A stretch of 64,000 nt of DNA from a virus. How positions within the stretch are numbered: the stretch's first letter is position 1; every line of letters begins with the position of its first letter. The stretch is from IMG/VR virus record IMGVR_UViG_3300045131_002362, positions 1-64,000 of that record, one strand, 5' to 3'. Shown here one piece after another: positions 30,945-44,646 of the stretch. Made by a program: the position numbers and the translations under genes. The notes beneath the pieces were generated by a model. The model had not been told where the DNA came from and did no database searches. It was given only the letters and a program-made list of their open reading frames with translations.

Positions 30945-31018
30945 TGGCTGCGCCGGAAGGACTCGAACCTTCTCACCGGGGATCAAAGCCCCGTATGCTG
31001 CCATTACATCACAGCGCA
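30945..31018 (-). tRNA. tRNA-Gln (TTG)
   Basis: A 74-base cloverleaf including an encoded CCA. Acceptor TGCGCTG pairs with CGGCGCA (one G-U), discriminator G. The anticodon stem CGGGG/CCCCG encloses CTTTGAT, so the anticodon is TTG, reading CAA. The T arm carries GGTTCGAGTCC. Its 5' end is one base after the tmRNA 3' end. Confidence 0.95.
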
Positions 31019-31019
31019 A

Positions 31020-31351
31020 TGGTGGAGGCGGGGGGAATTGAACCCCCGTCCGCCGATTGCTATACGTTGAAGCTACGCGCGTGTCCCGATTAGGTCGGGC
31101 AACCGAGAGCGACCCGGCAACAACTCCGAGCCTTCCACCATCCCGTTCCTTGGTCTACGGGCAACCGTCACGTTCCCTTTCGATGATTCGGTTCACCGCC
31201 GCTCAGGGTGCAGCGGGAACTATAGCGGCGATTAGGCCGCGATTTTCTCAGGCATGGCCTTTGAAGTTTTGCCTTGATTTTTACGTGGCCATCTAGGCTA
31301 CCACGGCACGCATCAACGTAATCGAAACCGGCGTCGAAACCTGACGCCCCC
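31020..31351 (-). ncRNA. ssrA: tmRNA (ssrA)
   Basis: A 332-base tmRNA on the minus strand. The 5' end GGGGGCGTCAGGTTTCGAC and 3' end CCCCGCCTCCACCA are the standard tRNA-like ends: GGGGGCG pairs with CGCCTCC (one G-U), and the T loop has GGTTCAATTCC. The likely resume codon is GGC (31273-31271). The tag reads GKTSKAMPEKIAA and ends at TAA 31234-31232, inside a GCGGC/GCCGC stem as usual. tmRNA frees stalled ribosomes and marks the peptide for proteolysis. Phage copies are known but uncommon. Confidence 0.95.
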
Positions 31352-39702: not shown

Positions 39703-39930
39703 TCAGCCCTTCTCGTAGAATTCGACGAGCACGAACTGCCAGTTCCACGCAAAATCGTGTTCGTAATTTTTGATGAGCTGGTGGAACCTCGCATGCGCCT
39801 CGCTCTCATTCGGGAAGCTGCCTTTGTACCCGTTGAAGGGCTCCTTGCCCTCTTCCGCGTTGCCGATCTCGCCCGGCTCGACCAGCACGCCACCGTCGAG
39901 CAGCACCTTCCAACAATAGCGTTTCCTCAT
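39703..39930 (-). CDS. Unknown 75-residue protein
   Basis: Begins MRKRYCWKVLLDGG and contains FPNESEAHARFHQLIKNYEHDF. The start overlaps the stop of the Rad50-like C-lobe gene. The pattern resembles small single-domain phage proteins of unknown role. Confidence 0.5.
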   Translation of the reverse strand: MRKRYCWKVLLDGGVLVEPGEIGNAEEGKEPFNGYKGSFPNESEAHARFHQLIKNYEHDFAWNWQFVLVEFYEKG

Positions 39931-40616
39931 ACCCTCACCACCTCGCTCTTTTCATAACCGATCTTGCGCACCTCGTACACGATGACGCCGGGCTCGCCGG
40001 CAATCACGTCGAGACTCTCGTCCGTCGCGGAGGCGTCGCCGATGTCGCTCTGGTGGACGACGACGGCCTGGATGTCGAGAGCGACGCATGTGTTGTACAG
40101 CATGCGCAGCGCACGCCTGCGGCCCGCAGAGCCGTGTAGGTTGCGGAACGGCTCGTCCAGCACAAGGACGCGCGAGGGCGCAGGCTGCTCGATAACGACA
40201 ACGCAGGGCCGCAGCGCGAAGCTGAGCGTGTCCCACAGGCCGCCACCGGCGCAGTCGAAAGGATGGGCCTCGTCGCCAGCCTCCGTGCGCAGCAGCAGCT
40301 CGCACTCCGTCTTGCCCCGGTTCTCCCGGAAGCGCACGACGAAGGCGTCCTTGCGCCGGTCGTGGAAGACGTGGTGCATCGCCTTGGTGACGATCGCGCC
40401 TACGTAGTTGCCGAAGCCGCTCTGCACGCGCGCCGCGACGTACTGCACTGTCTTCTGCACCGCGTCGATGTCAGTCTGCACGGCGCGCGCCGCGTCCAGC
40501 TTCACGCGCGCCTCTTCCAGCCTTGAACGCACCAGCAATCTTTGAGAGAAGAGAGCGTCTCGGCGCTGGCGAAGGCTTGCCACGCTTGCAATAGGGCAGC
40601 TTGATTCTGTCTGCAT
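39927..40616 (-). CDS. Rad50/SbcC-like ATPase, C-terminal lobe
   Basis: A 229-residue protein: a coiled coil at about 15-65, then an ABC ATPase C-lobe with signature CAGGGLWDTLSFAL (122-135) and Walker B VLVLDEPF (150-157, catalytic Glu), followed by a D-loop-like NLHGS. No Walker A is present. The complementary N-lobe with Walker A and zinc hook is the separate gene at 43276-44646. The two should assemble into one ATPase with SbcD (41767-42705). The start at 40616 follows AAAGGAATCATTC and overlaps the upstream gene by 146 bases. Confidence 0.75.
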   Translation of the reverse strand: MQTESSCPIASVASLRQRRDALFSQRLLVRSRLEEARVKLDAARAVQTDIDAVQKTVQYVAARVQSGFGNYVGAIVTKAMHHVFHDRRKDAFVVRFRENRGKTECELLLRTEAGDEAHPFDCAGGGLWDTLSFALRPCVVVIEQPAPSRVLVLDEPFRNLHGSAGRRRALRMLYNTCVALDIQAVVVHQSDIGDASATDESLDVIAGEPGVIVYEVRKIGYEKSEVVRV

Positions 40617-40890
40617 GAATGATTCCTTTCTGCTCGAATTCCTCACCCGGCTGCCGCGATCCGCGACACGCCGGAAACTTCACACACCCGTAGAATGGCC
40701 CGTGCGGGCCTGTCGTAACCAGCCTCGTCTTCGCACCGCACTCGGGACACTCGCCCGGTCCGCAAGGGCGGTCGCTATACAGCCTGCCCTCCGCAGCGTA
40801 CGCGCCGTCGAAAAGCGGCTCCTCGTCGTCCGCCCAGTACGAATCGTAAAGGCCGCTCCACATCTCCATGTCATCGGTTGTGTCGCTCAT
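40471..40890 (-). CDS. Topoisomerase-type zinc-finger protein
   Basis: A 139-residue protein. CPECGAKTRLVTTGPHGPFYGC followed by FPACRG is the C-terminal zinc finger found in topoisomerase I, here free-standing. The last 48 residues are basic and lie in the region that also encodes the N-terminus of the Rad50-like C-lobe, in another frame. The real stop may therefore carry a long overlap. Confidence 0.6.
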   Translation of the reverse strand: MSDTTDDMEMWSGLYDSYWADDEEPLFDGAYAAEGRLYSDRPCGPGECPECGAKTRLVTTGPHGPFYGCVKFPACRGSRQPGEEFEQKGIIHADRIKLPYCKRGKPSPAPRRSLLSKIAGAFKAGRGAREAGRGARRAD

Positions 40891-41360
40891 GGTCTGCCGC
40901 CTATGCTGTATTCCGGGATGTCTGTCAACACTCCGTTGAACTTCAGAAGCACTCCGGCCTTCTCAAGCGCGTCATGAGCACTGTCACCACGCGCTTTGGC
41001 TCGTTCGTGCTCGTTCATGCGGATGCGGGCGATCATGCGCTGTTTGTAATAAAGCGAATAGAGCGCCGCCACAGGAGACCGGTGCGCGAACTTCTTGATC
41101 GCCGTCTTACACACGCGCTTCGGCTTGAACAGCGGAATGACACGATGACCATCCGAGAGAAAGCCTACCGTCTCAAAGCACCGTGTCTCTGACAGCACAT
41201 CGTATTCGATGCACAAGGGGTTAGCTTCGTCGTACTTCCCAAAATACCAGCGATACCTCTTAGCGGGATCGGGAACGAAGTCCTTCGCGAGATACTTTGC
41301 AAGATCATCGCGTTTCTCGGCGCAGGTCGCGAGAATGTTTCCGTCAAACAAACGATTCAT
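40887..41360 (-). CDS. Unknown 157-residue protein
   Basis: Begins MNRLFDGN behind GAGGTG; a GTG four codons earlier is possible. Basic in the middle (FKPKRVCKTAIKKFAHRS). Coupled to both neighbours. No family recognised. Confidence 0.5.
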   Translation of the reverse strand: MNRLFDGNILATCAEKRDDLAKYLAKDFVPDPAKRYRWYFGKYDEANPLCIEYDVLSETRCFETVGFLSDGHRVIPLFKPKRVCKTAIKKFAHRSPVAALYSLYYKQRMIARIRMNEHERAKARGDSAHDALEKAGVLLKFNGVLTDIPEYSIGGRP

Positions 41361-41364
41361 TTCA

Positions 41365-41619
41365 TCACCCACCTCTCCCGAAAAGGATCGAGTCGAGTTC
41401 TCTCGCCAGATCCTTCAGCGTGTATCCCGTGCAGTGTCTCTTGGCGCCGAAAGCCTGCACCGACAGGGTTTTCAGCGAGGCCGAAATGCGCTTCACCTTT
41501 GCGACATCCTCCTCGGTGAGCCGCTGCTTGCACACGCAGCAGATCGACTCGAAGCCGCCGGATCTCGCGGCGATCTTCTCTTTCAGCGCGGAGCGATCAG
41601 ATGGTGTCATCGTTGTCAC
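41365..41619 (-). CDS. Small Cys-pair protein, 84 residues
   Basis: Starts at GTG 41619 in a GTGA overlap, with GGAGAAGG upstream. CCVCKQRLTEED is one half of a zinc site and a lone Cys follows. A longer frame to 41706 lacks a start signal. Function unknown. Confidence 0.5.
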   Translation of the reverse strand: MTTMTPSDRSALKEKIAARSGGFESICCVCKQRLTEEDVAKVKRISASLKTLSVQAFGAKRHCTGYTLKDLARELDSILFGRGG

Positions 41620-41756
41620 TTCAGCCTTCTCCAGATTGGACAATTCTCGATCTTGCACTTTCCATAGGTGAATGGGCGAGTCGTTCGATTGCTCGCATTG
41701 GCACATGCCCCGAGATCAAGATGCGAGCAGTTCCGCTTGAGTTGTCGAAAGGTTAT
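41616..41756 (-). CDS. Cys-rich 46-residue protein, possible ATA start
   Basis: Between the SbcD stop and the next gene, the frame ITFRQLKRNCSHLD to CPIWRRLK carries four Cys (C10, C18, C34, C39), a pattern of small phage zinc proteins. It has no ATG, GTG or TTG. An ATA at 41756 sits right after AAGAAAGAG, 11 bases past the SbcD stop, so a rare AUA start or a sequencing error is suggested. Confidence 0.4.
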   Translation of the reverse strand: MTFRQLKRNCSHLDLGACANASNRTTRPFTYGKCKIENCPIWRRLK

Positions 41757-41766
41757 CTCTTTCTTC

Positions 41767-42705
41767 TCAGATGCTGTTGATGATGTCACGGAGAAGCCTC
41801 CTCTGATTTTCGGTGAACACAAGTTCGCCGCACTTGCCTTCCTTCTCGATGCGCTCCAGCCCGGCCTTGAACGTGTCGCCGTATTGGAAGCCACCCGCGA
41901 GGGCCTCGCTGAACTCGTCCTTCTTGTCCTCCCGGCCCTTGTCCGCGTCCGAGCGCTCCAGCTCAAACACGTCCTTCTCGCCGACGAAGACGTTCTCGAC
42001 GCTCATGTCGTCGAACAGGACGCAGAAGCGCGGCTGCTGTTCCTTGTAGCGCACGTCGCTGCGTGTGAAGCAGCCGATGTTGTGGAACTCGACGCCGCCG
42101 ACCGTCACGTCGAACGCCTTGTGGTTGTCGCCCGAGAACACCATGTCGTAGCCGAGCGCCTTGTACTTCGCGGCTTCCACCGCCACATTGCCCTCCGTCT
42201 GGCCGGGAAACACGGGCGTGTTGTGCCACAGCGTCTTGTGCGTGACGAGGACCGACAACTTTGTGTCGTGACTCGGCTGCGGTATCACGTCGCCCCAGCC
42301 GGCGCCGTAAACAGAGACAGCTTTGTCAAGTTCGTAGGTTGAACCCGAGAAGTTCCTCATCGACGGTCCGGCCTCGTCGAACAGGGCATTCAGCGAGGTC
42401 ATGCGGTCATTCGCGTTATGGTGAAATCGGTCGTGCTGGCCAGGCACGACGTAGAGCCGCACATGCGGCCAGAAGTGCTCGCGCAGCACATCCCGCAGCG
42501 TCCACCAGTCGTTGAAGCTGCGGCTGATGTCGAACGTGTCGCCGGCCACGAAGCCGGGGATGCCGTGCTTACGCAGATATCCCGCGAACTTCACCAGCTT
42601 CGCGCCGATCACCTCGTTGAACGGACACGTCTCGCGCCGGTACTCGGGCGTCCGCGTCATCCAGTGGATGTCGGCCGCGAAGGCCGCTATCGGTTTCTTG
42701 CTCAT
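41767..42705 (-). CDS. SbcD/Mre11-like nuclease (T4 gp47-like)
   Basis: A 312-residue calcineurin-like phosphoesterase. Motifs in order: ADIHW (D12, H14), AGDTFD (54-59), PGQHD (88-92, usually GNHD), VTHKT, and SGDNHK (usually GHxH). It should form a complex with the two-part Rad50-like ATPase and process DNA ends for recombination. The gene lies between the two halves of that ATPase. Start behind GGAGG. Confidence 0.85.
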   Translation of the reverse strand: MSKKPIAAFAADIHWMTRTPEYRRETCPFNEVIGAKLVKFAGYLRKHGIPGFVAGDTFDISRSFNDWWTLRDVLREHFWPHVRLYVVPGQHDRFHHNANDRMTSLNALFDEAGPSMRNFSGSTYELDKAVSVYGAGWGDVIPQPSHDTKLSVLVTHKTLWHNTPVFPGQTEGNVAVEAAKYKALGYDMVFSGDNHKAFDVTVGGVEFHNIGCFTRSDVRYKEQQPRFCVLFDDMSVENVFVGEKDVFELERSDADKGREDKKDEFSEALAGGFQYGDTFKAGLERIEKEGKCGELVFTENQRRLLRDIINSI

Positions 42706-43022
42706 TCGGGCCTCCATTCGGGATCAGACGTGAGTTCGGGCACCCGGATCTCACAGCGCGTCTTCTTATCCGCGTCGATCACGAGCAGCTTGCCGGAGAT
42801 CTCCTTGGCGTACCGGACAACCGCGAGCGCCGGAGACGCCCCGTTTCCGTGTTCGCCGCAAAGGATGCGACCGTCCTTCGTCTCGGCGCCTTTGAAACTG
42901 GCGTAATAGCGCATCATCGGATCAGGATGATTTTCGCGCTCGACCACGCGCATCGTAAGTCCGTGCTTTTCGGCAAAGGCTTGCAGCGTCATGCGCTCGG
43001 CCCGCTTTATTTCGATCTTCAC
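42702..43022 (-). CDS. Unknown 106-residue protein
   Basis: Begins MKIEIKRAERMTLQAFAEKHGL. Mixed alpha/beta with a single CGEHGNG. Four-base overlaps with both neighbours place it in the SbcCD operon. No family recognised. Confidence 0.5.
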   Translation of the reverse strand: MKIEIKRAERMTLQAFAEKHGLTMRVVERENHPDPMMRYYASFKGAETKDGRILCGEHGNGASPALAVVRYAKEISGKLLVIDADKKTRCEIRVPELTSDPEWRPE

Positions 43023-43273
43023 GCCCGCACCCCCACGGCAGCCTCGACGGCCAATACCGCCGCCTCGGCTTTACGATTGGCCTCCTCGGCCTCGGCGGTG
43101 AGCCGCACGGCCTCGGCGCGCTTCTCCTCGACCTTGGCGCTCAGCTCCTCGACAGTCGAGCAGCCGTATTTCTCCTTCGCCTCCAGAAGCAGCGCCGCGC
43201 GCTTCTCGTTGTTCTGCCGGTTGCGCTCGCTGGCCACCGCCAGCCTCTGTTGCAGCTCGTTCAGGTTCGCCAT
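43019..43273 (-). CDS. Coiled-coil protein within the Rad50/Mre11 cluster
   Basis: An 84-residue, almost wholly coiled-coil protein (ELSAKVEEKRAEAVRLTAEAEE). The second ATG (43273) is better spaced from GGGAGA. It directly follows the zinc-hook end of the Rad50-like N-lobe, so it may be part of the missing return arm of the coiled coil (inference). Confidence 0.5.
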   Translation of the reverse strand: MANLNELQQRLAVASERNRQNNEKRAALLLEAKEKYGCSTVEELSAKVEEKRAEAVRLTAEAEEANRKAEAAVLAVEAAVGVRA

Positions 43274-43275
43274 AG

Positions 43276-44646
43276 TCATTCTCCCTTGTTCGCGTGCCAG
43301 TGCTTTTGTTCGGCTCCGCATTCGGGGCACACCGGATGCAGTCGCTTGTATTCCTCGATCTCCTCGCTCAGCGCGGCGACCGCGCTCCCCAAGAAAATCC
43401 TGTCGACCTCTGTTTTGCCGATCGATAAAACGAGCGCTTCCATCCCGGCCAACTCTTGCGCACAAAACTCAAGATCGCATGTTTCGTTCTTGGCGGAAAG
43501 GCATCTCCAGTCGGCCTCTCGGATGCCCACGGATTCGTCATGGCTGACGCGAAGCAAAGCCAGGTGCAGGTTCTCCATCTCGAAGATCTCGGACTCGGAC
43601 ATCTCTCGCTTCTCGCGCGCCGCCTGCGCCTGCGTCAGCATCAGCGCCGCCCTGCGTGGCGCGATGCCCGCGTCTCGCGGCAGCGCCGTCAGCCCGGCCA
43701 GTGTAGCAGCCATGCGGCCCAGCACGGCCTGCTCGCCGTCGCGCAGTACGACCGCCATATCCAGATCGACCATCGTGTCCTTGGCCCGCAGCGTGTCCGC
43801 TTTAGCCGGCAGCCGCGCCAGCTCGTCGGCGATGCGCGACAGGTCGGCTCTCTCAGCAACCGACGCCTCGCTCGCCTTTGCGGCACGCGAAGCGACTACG
43901 ACTGCGCAACTGGCAAAATCGACAGCCTCCCTGTGATCCGGAAGCACCTCGACCAGCCTATCACGGATAGAGACGAGCATGCCTACCAGCTCCTGCGCGT
44001 CCACAGCCGCCGACTCGGCGTATTCCGCGTCGATGACGGCCTCGGTCGCCGCGTCCAGCCCGGCGTACTTCGCGCCTGCCGCCTCCTCGCGCTCGATCTC
44101 CGCTTGCGCAAGACGCAGCTTCTCGTCGTTCGCGTTCTTACGCGTCCGCACCTCAGCAAGCGCCGCGTCGATCTGCACGAGGCCCACGGCCTTCGAGAGA
44201 ACCTCCGCGACGCGCCCGTCCGTCTCGCAAAGCAGGAAGTTGCCAGTTGAGGCCGGTGGCCGCGCGCCCTGCAACTGGATGGCGTGAGGCGACAGGCGCA
44301 GCAGCGTGGCGACCTCCTCGGGCACCTCTCGGCCGATCGCGTTCAGCGGTTGGCCGTCGATCTCATACTCGTTCTTGCTCTTGCCGCGTCGGCGCACGAT
44401 GCTGTGTTCCTTGCCATCGTCGCCCTCGATCAGCACGTCGACCTCGCTGCACGCGCCGCGCTTGGCTCCGTGACGCAGCAGGTCGATGCCTGCCGGAAGG
44501 TTGCGGAAGTGCTGATTCAAGCCGCGCACAATGGCGCTCTTGCCGCTTTCGCTTACGCCCGTGAACACGGTCAGCCGCTCGGCGAAGTCGAACCGGCTGT
44601 CGACATGACTCAGCACATCCGTGAATCTAGCACTTTTAAGTTTCAT
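43276..44646 (-). CDS. Rad50/SbcC-like ATPase, N-terminal lobe and zinc hook
   Basis: A 456-residue protein. Walker A GVSESGKS (30-37), then a beta-rich lobe with a Q-loop (AIQLQG), a long coiled coil (about 170-430), and a zinc hook CPEC (440-443) only 13 residues from the end. There is no signature motif or Walker B; these are in the gene at 39927-40616. The protein thus stops at the hook, where SbcC/Rad50 would normally turn back. ATG 44646 is preferred to the GTG four codons earlier. Confidence 0.8.
   Translation of the reverse strand: MKLKSARFTDVLSHVDSRFDFAERLTVFTGVSESGKSAIVRGLNQHFRNLPAGIDLLRHGAKRGACSEVDVLIEGDDGKEHSIVRRRGKSKNEYEIDGQPLNAIGREVPEEVATLLRLSPHAIQLQGARPPASTGNFLLCETDGRVAEVLSKAVGLVQIDAALAEVRTRKNANDEKLRLAQAEIEREEAAGAKYAGLDAATEAVIDAEYAESAAVDAQELVGMLVSIRDRLVEVLPDHREAVDFASCAVVVASRAAKASEASVAERADLSRIADELARLPAKADTLRAKDTMVDLDMAVVLRDGEQAVLGRMAATLAGLTALPRDAGIAPRRAALMLTQAQAAREKREMSESEIFEMENLHLALLRVSHDESVGIREADWRCLSAKNETCDLEFCAQELAGMEALVLSIGKTEVDRIFLGSAVAALSEEIEEYKRLHPVCPECGAEQKHWHANKGE

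Follow-up and report, generated by a model that had tools for sequence, protein, structure and literature searches.

The window analysed here, which comprises bases 1-64000 of the 86,708-base IMG/VR virus record IMGVR_UViG_3300045131_002362, carries on its minus strand a Rad50/SbcC ATPase encoded as two separate genes, one for the N-terminal half (N-half) and one, further downstream, for the C-terminal half (C-half). The two genes lie 2.66 kb apart (Table 1), and the space between them holds the genes of a small helical protein, here called H, of a 106-residue open reading frame (ORF) and of an SbcD/Mre11-type phosphoesterase, together with three more small ORFs. A first-pass annotation had proposed that the ATPase is split at its zinc hook, which is borne out by the reading frames, the motifs and the Rad50 profile and fold matches to both halves, and had placed an SbcD gene and a separate coiled-coil gene between the halves, where both are indeed found. 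Direct reading of the sequence shows that each gene in the series N-half, H, 106-residue ORF and SbcD shares four bases with the next (ATGA at 43276-43279, GTGA at 43019-43022 and ATGA at 42702-42705), which suggests translational coupling. At the other end of the locus, the first part of the C-half gene shares about 146 bases, read in a different frame, with the 139-residue zinc-ribbon ORF, and an alternative upstream GTG start of the C-half is possible at 40646. The 106-residue ORF gave no significant family match in searches of PHROG and of protein family profiles.

Table 1. Genes of the split Rad50/SbcC locus, with positions in the window
Feature	Position	Strand	Characteristics
N-half of split Rad50/SbcC, 456 amino acids	43276..44646	-	Walker A lobe, Q-loop, repeat-built helical arm, C-terminal CPEC zinc hook
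Small helical protein H, 86 amino acids	43019..43279	-	probable helix-turn-helix hairpin, turn YGCSTVEEL
106-amino-acid ORF	42702..43022	-	overlaps H and SbcD genes
SbcD/Mre11-type calcineurin-like phosphoesterase, 312 amino acids	41767..42705	-	PF00149 3.5e-4, family HMM 1.1e-18
139-amino-acid ORF with topoisomerase-type zinc ribbon	40471..40890	-	Zn_ribbon_Top1 4.4e-6, under curated cut-off
C-half of split Rad50/SbcC, 229 amino acids	39927..40616	-	long helix 8-84, CAGGG, Walker B VLVLDEP, H-loop H188

Both halves are homologous to Rad50 lobes. The N-half presents a Walker A motif (GVSESGKS) and a Q-loop region (IQLQG), and its chain stops 13 residues past the CPEC zinc hook, with CPECGAEQKHWHANKGE as its C-terminal residues, in agreement with the 456-residue protein of the first-pass description. 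The C-half contains the segments FDCAGGGLWD, VLVLDEPFRNL and VVVHQS, with D154 and the catalytic glutamate E155 in Walker B and H188 as the H-loop histidine. When the family alignments were compared with profiles of PDB proteins, Rad50 was matched by both the N-half family (6.9e-14) and the C-half family (6.5e-15; best sequence match 3qkr_B), and the end of the N profile (positions 411-472) matched the zinc-hook structures 6zff and 1l8d. AlphaFold2 models, whose mean predicted local distance difference test values were 66 for the N-half (the arm being of low confidence) and 77 for the C-half, also found Rad50 as their best PDB matches in fold searches, namely 1ii8 (2.6e-5) for the N-half, and 3qku (7.8e-6) and 1f2u for the C-half. 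In PHROG, the N-half matches phrog_16465 (2e-19) and the C-half phrog_15167 (4e-8). Hidden Markov models (HMMs) built with the window left out recovered its N-half (7.6e-42), C-half (6.8e-22) and SbcD (1.1e-18) as their sole matches among 530 window ORFs; given this specificity, and given that the models of the halves match Rad50 best, chance similarity is excluded.

The split is a stable and widespread trait of a phage clade, and is also found on Bacillales plasmids. A bait representing the C-half retrieved 41 IMG/VR contigs and one Sutcliffiella contig, while a bait for the N-half, independent of the former, retrieved 44 loci. The halves are separate ORFs wherever both were found, be it in the contigs and loci retrieved with the two baits, in phages or in plasmids, and no ORF joins N and C, although both baits are patterns typical of the split clade that unsplit near relatives could escape. 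Three contigs with a C-half, possibly fragments, yielded no N-half. Dereplication left 53 distinct N-halves and 54 distinct C-halves. All 53 N-halves present the Walker A residues G30, G35 and K36, and the Q-loop glutamine is present in 51 of the 53 aligned; among C-halves, the Walker B DE pair is invariant (54/54) and the H-loop histidine nearly so (50/54). A CxxC motif lies 4-22 residues before the chain end in 50/53 N-halves, the remainder being those of Magritte, L065 and L066. In the L066 N-half (L066:1498-2934), CPITMKPISGDC stands at the end in place of CxxC, and the hook may be altered. In the L018 contig (L064/L070), the N-half profile match shows one internal TAG, and the ORF listing gives a 312-residue ORF ending in CPTC.

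The first-pass annotation had recommended looking for the same split in related phages, and it is present in isolated phages of Bacillus, Microbacterium, Tunturiibacter and Microcystis, besides the IMG/VR contigs and plasmids. Bacillus phage vB_BboS-125 encodes a 471-residue N-half ending in CPLCEQTHKGGGC (gp32), a 78-residue helical protein (gp34), a 211-residue C-half (gp35) and an SbcD, and the same four genes are present in the uncultured 485-kb phage LR745208. In Microcystis phage Mvi-JY20, N-half, SbcD, small helical protein and C-half are encoded by four contiguous overlapping genes. The parts are scattered in the Tunturiibacter phage Tunturi_5 and the Microbacterium phage Magritte, with about 108 kb between the two halves of Tunturi_5, which are encoded on opposite strands. 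On three plasmids, from Geobacillus, Paenibacillus and Aneurinibacillus, SbcD and the N-half are fused in one ORF, followed by separate genes for the small helical protein and the C-half; this fusion ties the N-half to SbcD. Some of these loci show further particularities. The SbcD gene of vB_BboS-125 (L002:12217-13197) is missing from the RefSeq annotation, and in this phage an AP2-domain gene (gp33) separates the N-half gene from that of the small helical protein. The Paenibacillus polymyxa plasmid pSC2 (L060:8687-10534) and the Aneurinibacillus plasmid (L061:8665-10494) carry an ATP-binding gene after the C-half that looks HerA-like by eye, an arrangement that recalls the archaeal HerA-Mre11-Rad50 clusters.

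From the functional point of view, it is quite probable that these genes encode a naturally split Rad50/SbcC ATPase which is put together in trans with an SbcD/Mre11-type nuclease and serves phage recombination and replication. The N lobe, with Walker A and Q-loop, and the C lobe, with a signature-like motif, Walker B and H-loop, would associate into one ATPase head, two such heads would dimerise around ATP, and the head would bind the SbcD/Mre11-type nuclease, while the hooks at the tips of the arms could pair via zinc. The small protein H would probably pack on the arm or the head as a structural subunit. The resulting complex would process DNA ends for phage recombination and replication in the way of T4 gp46/gp47, whose mutation impairs recombination, replication and the breakdown of host DNA (PMC5105663). 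Genes for a UvsX-like recombinase, a DnaB-like helicase, a clamp loader, a DNA polymerase, a 5'-3' exonuclease and an endonuclease VII-like protein neighbour the locus in the window, which points to recombination-linked replication as in T4. Most relatives have a small helical gene of this sort, so that the H gene probably belongs to the system; in the window, the assignment of H is based on its position and size, on a helix-turn-helix pattern like that of its counterparts, and on weak pairwise similarity to relatives (BLASTP 8e-4 to Magritte gp245; shuffle z of about 5). The window SbcD, whose PF00149 match lies exactly at the cut-off, keeps the metal-site residues D6, H8, D50, H85, H150 and H189.

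Several points weigh against this proposal. The interaction and assembly of the halves, the ATPase and nuclease activities, the role of H and the part played in infection are inferred. Two metal-site positions of the window SbcD are substituted (N84 to Q and H187 to D), at which the clade has N in 33/35 and H in 30/35 (motifs DxH, GDxxD, GNHD, H and GHxH, scored in 35 SbcDs). The H ORF of the window was missed by the leave-one-out HMM among the 530 window ORFs, in keeping with its low sequence signal. Pairwise distances of N, C and SbcD are closely correlated over 42 genomes (r 0.92-0.94, against a shuffled maximum of 0.32), and this would fit one complex, although shared phage ancestry would also produce it. 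Finally, 52 of the 54 C-halves have lost the serine of the ABC signature, and arginine takes its place in 25/54, a substitution that inactivates canonical Rad50.

The first-pass annotation had credited the 229-residue C-half with a Walker B and a signature motif, of which the former stands (VLVLDEP) and the latter only in part. The canonical LSGG[QE] is CAGGG in the window and xxGGG in the clade, where GG is present in 51-52/54 C-halves and the serine in just 2/54, arginine being the commonest residue. In canonical Rad50, changing this serine to arginine (S793R in Pyrococcus furiosus, S1205R in yeast) abolishes dimerisation and hydrolysis, whereas tethering of DNA ends remains (PMC7049730). 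On these grounds, the split proteins might alternatively form an ATP-independent tether or scaffold of DNA ends, in which the altered signature blocks productive ATP-driven dimerisation. This is a fair rival, although an improbable one, as Walker A, the Walker B glutamate and the H-loop histidine are almost invariant, which is unexpected without hydrolysis, and the conservation of GGG itself indicates a motif that was changed rather than decayed. Since Walker A, Walker B and H-loop are kept, the ATP cycle probably runs with the changed signature.

The arm of the N-half offers a further view of the architecture. Self-similarity, combined for 40 distinct arms of which many are related, peaks sharply at 47 residues (combined z 29.3) and again at 94 (z 15.6), and the window arm alone shows peaks at 45 (z 4.6) and 88 (z 3.2). 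Between Walker A and the hook there are 273 to 486 residues, and the lengths cluster at about 426 and about 473, one repeat unit apart, while the leader of the C-half up to the conserved IEEIVT motif measures about 62-82 residues, with the exception of a few ORFs that have upstream starts. In a classical two-strand hairpin arm, the second strand must vary in length with the first. That the N arm varies by more than 200 residues with no change in the C-half thus suggests that the arm may be self-contained and built of helical repeats. It is plausible, although we put it forward tentatively, that this represents a new SMC-like (structural maintenance of chromosomes) architecture, in which the arm would be a rod of repeats of about 47 residues instead of a hairpin, growing and shrinking by whole units and bearing the hook at its free C-terminus, with the C-lobe and the small helical subunit supplied separately and the ATPase working with RGGG or FGGG in place of LSGGQ.

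Another idea is that a split intein or trans-splicing joins the halves into one continuous Rad50. In some phages and cyanobacteria, replication proteins encoded in two pieces are indeed joined by split inteins. Such joining is nevertheless very unlikely here and was rejected, as the few residues that follow the hook are too short for an intein half, the halves of Tunturi_5 lie far apart on opposite strands, and the C-half has no second coiled-coil arm of a length to match that of the N-half. Similarly remote is the possibility that the phage carries these genes as an SMC-type system of defence against plasmids or phages, like Lamassu. Weak local PADLOC matches link the proteins to LmuB (1.6e-5 for the window, 2.1e-15 for the Bacillus relative), AriA, PtuA and mad3. 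However, they are confined to the P-loop lobe and helical arm common to SMC-like proteins, LmuB consists of one chain, there was no sign of a linked Lamassu effector, and the neighbours in the window are replication and recombination genes, for which reasons a defence function was discarded. The idea of a broken SbcC, whether by frameshift, insertion or assembly error, with neither half functional, is favoured only by the single-chain nature of the canonical protein, and its probability is practically negligible, since the ends lie 2.66 kb apart with several intervening ORFs, which excludes a frameshift, and the same split site recurs, with catalytic motifs kept in 53-54 distinct proteins, in independently sequenced isolated phages, prophages and plasmids. 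The other objection foreseen in the first pass, a full-length SbcC elsewhere in the genome, did not materialise either: searches with the half profiles and TIGR00618 detected no second N-half, C-half or SbcC-like gene in the 86.7-kb record, which is possibly incomplete, the best TIGR00618 match being 8.6 bits over 20 positions.

The split Rad50/SbcC system is thus best placed, as judged from its sequences, as a conserved variant of the known Rad50/SbcC machine, homologous to it, yet lacking two features that define the canonical family, the single chain and the LSGG[QE] signature. With archaeal and eukaryotic Rad50, E. coli SbcC and T4 gp46 it shares both lobes, Walker A and B, Q-loop, H-loop, zinc hook, helical arm and an adjoining SbcD/Mre11. 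In contrast to these proteins, it consists of two polypeptides, its hook is found at a free C-terminus instead of mid-chain, the repeat-built arm seems to lack a return strand of equal length on the C-half, and there is an extra small helical protein. A head formed by separate N and C chains, as proposed here, has a counterpart in crystal structures of separately expressed P. furiosus Rad50 fragments (1f2u, 3qkr), and 3qkr_B, the best sequence match of the C-half, is such a separate C fragment; those two chains are laboratory-made, whereas the split in the phages is natural and its N chain retains both arm and hook. A distant similarity in P-loop and arm extends to SMC-like defence ATPases such as Lamassu LmuB, which differ in being single chains, in their gene context and in having no SbcD partner that could be seen. 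Escherichia phage IME392 (L062) encodes one 921-residue SbcD-SbcC chain with the hook mid-chain and a canonical LSGGQ, so it was rejected as a split relative and serves as a control. In the SbcD-SbcC fusions of Mimivirus (R555) and others (PMC3175470), SbcD is joined to the Rad50 N-lobe, as in the plasmid ORFs described above. The same 2011 report described two such fusions, from Bacillus phage 0305phi8-36 and Anaerostipes, as lacking one P-loop segment, which a separate C-half may explain.

On the common view, an SMC or Rad50 protein needs a single chain leading out to its hook or hinge and returning from it. A conserved cut exactly at the hook shows that this chain link is dispensable and raises the question of what hook and arm really do, and the natural serine-to-arginine signature makes it possible to test directly how far the ATP cycle is indispensable. 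The first-pass annotation had called the split very unusual, which holds in comparison with the described SbcC and Rad50 proteins but not within the phage clade. No description of a split Rad50/SbcC was found in the open-access literature searched, an absence that is not proof. A 2021 survey of jumbo phages presents a split DNA polymerase III module and a near-universal SbcCD (PMC7824862), and the parts of it consulted make no mention of a split SbcC. PHROG already lists phage N-halves (phrog_16465, 'exonuclease', 491 residues) and C-halves (phrog_15167, 'ATPase', 211 residues) as separate families, but the entries are unlinked, carry generic names and leave their common Rad50 membership unstated. 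Current annotations of the halves read 'exonuclease', 'ATPase', 'AAA family ATPase', 'ParA' or hypothetical, and because the halves are thus annotated as unrelated proteins, the complex is invisible in databases.

As for the phage itself, scans of IMG/VR with single window proteins gave no match, which indicates that it has no close relative there. Away from the split locus, the minus strand of the window carries a transfer-messenger RNA (tmRNA) gene at 31020-31351 (Rfam RF00023, 120.8 bits, tag AAIVPAAP), adjoining a tRNA-Gln gene at 30945-31018 on the same strand; a tmRNA gene carried by a phage is unusual.

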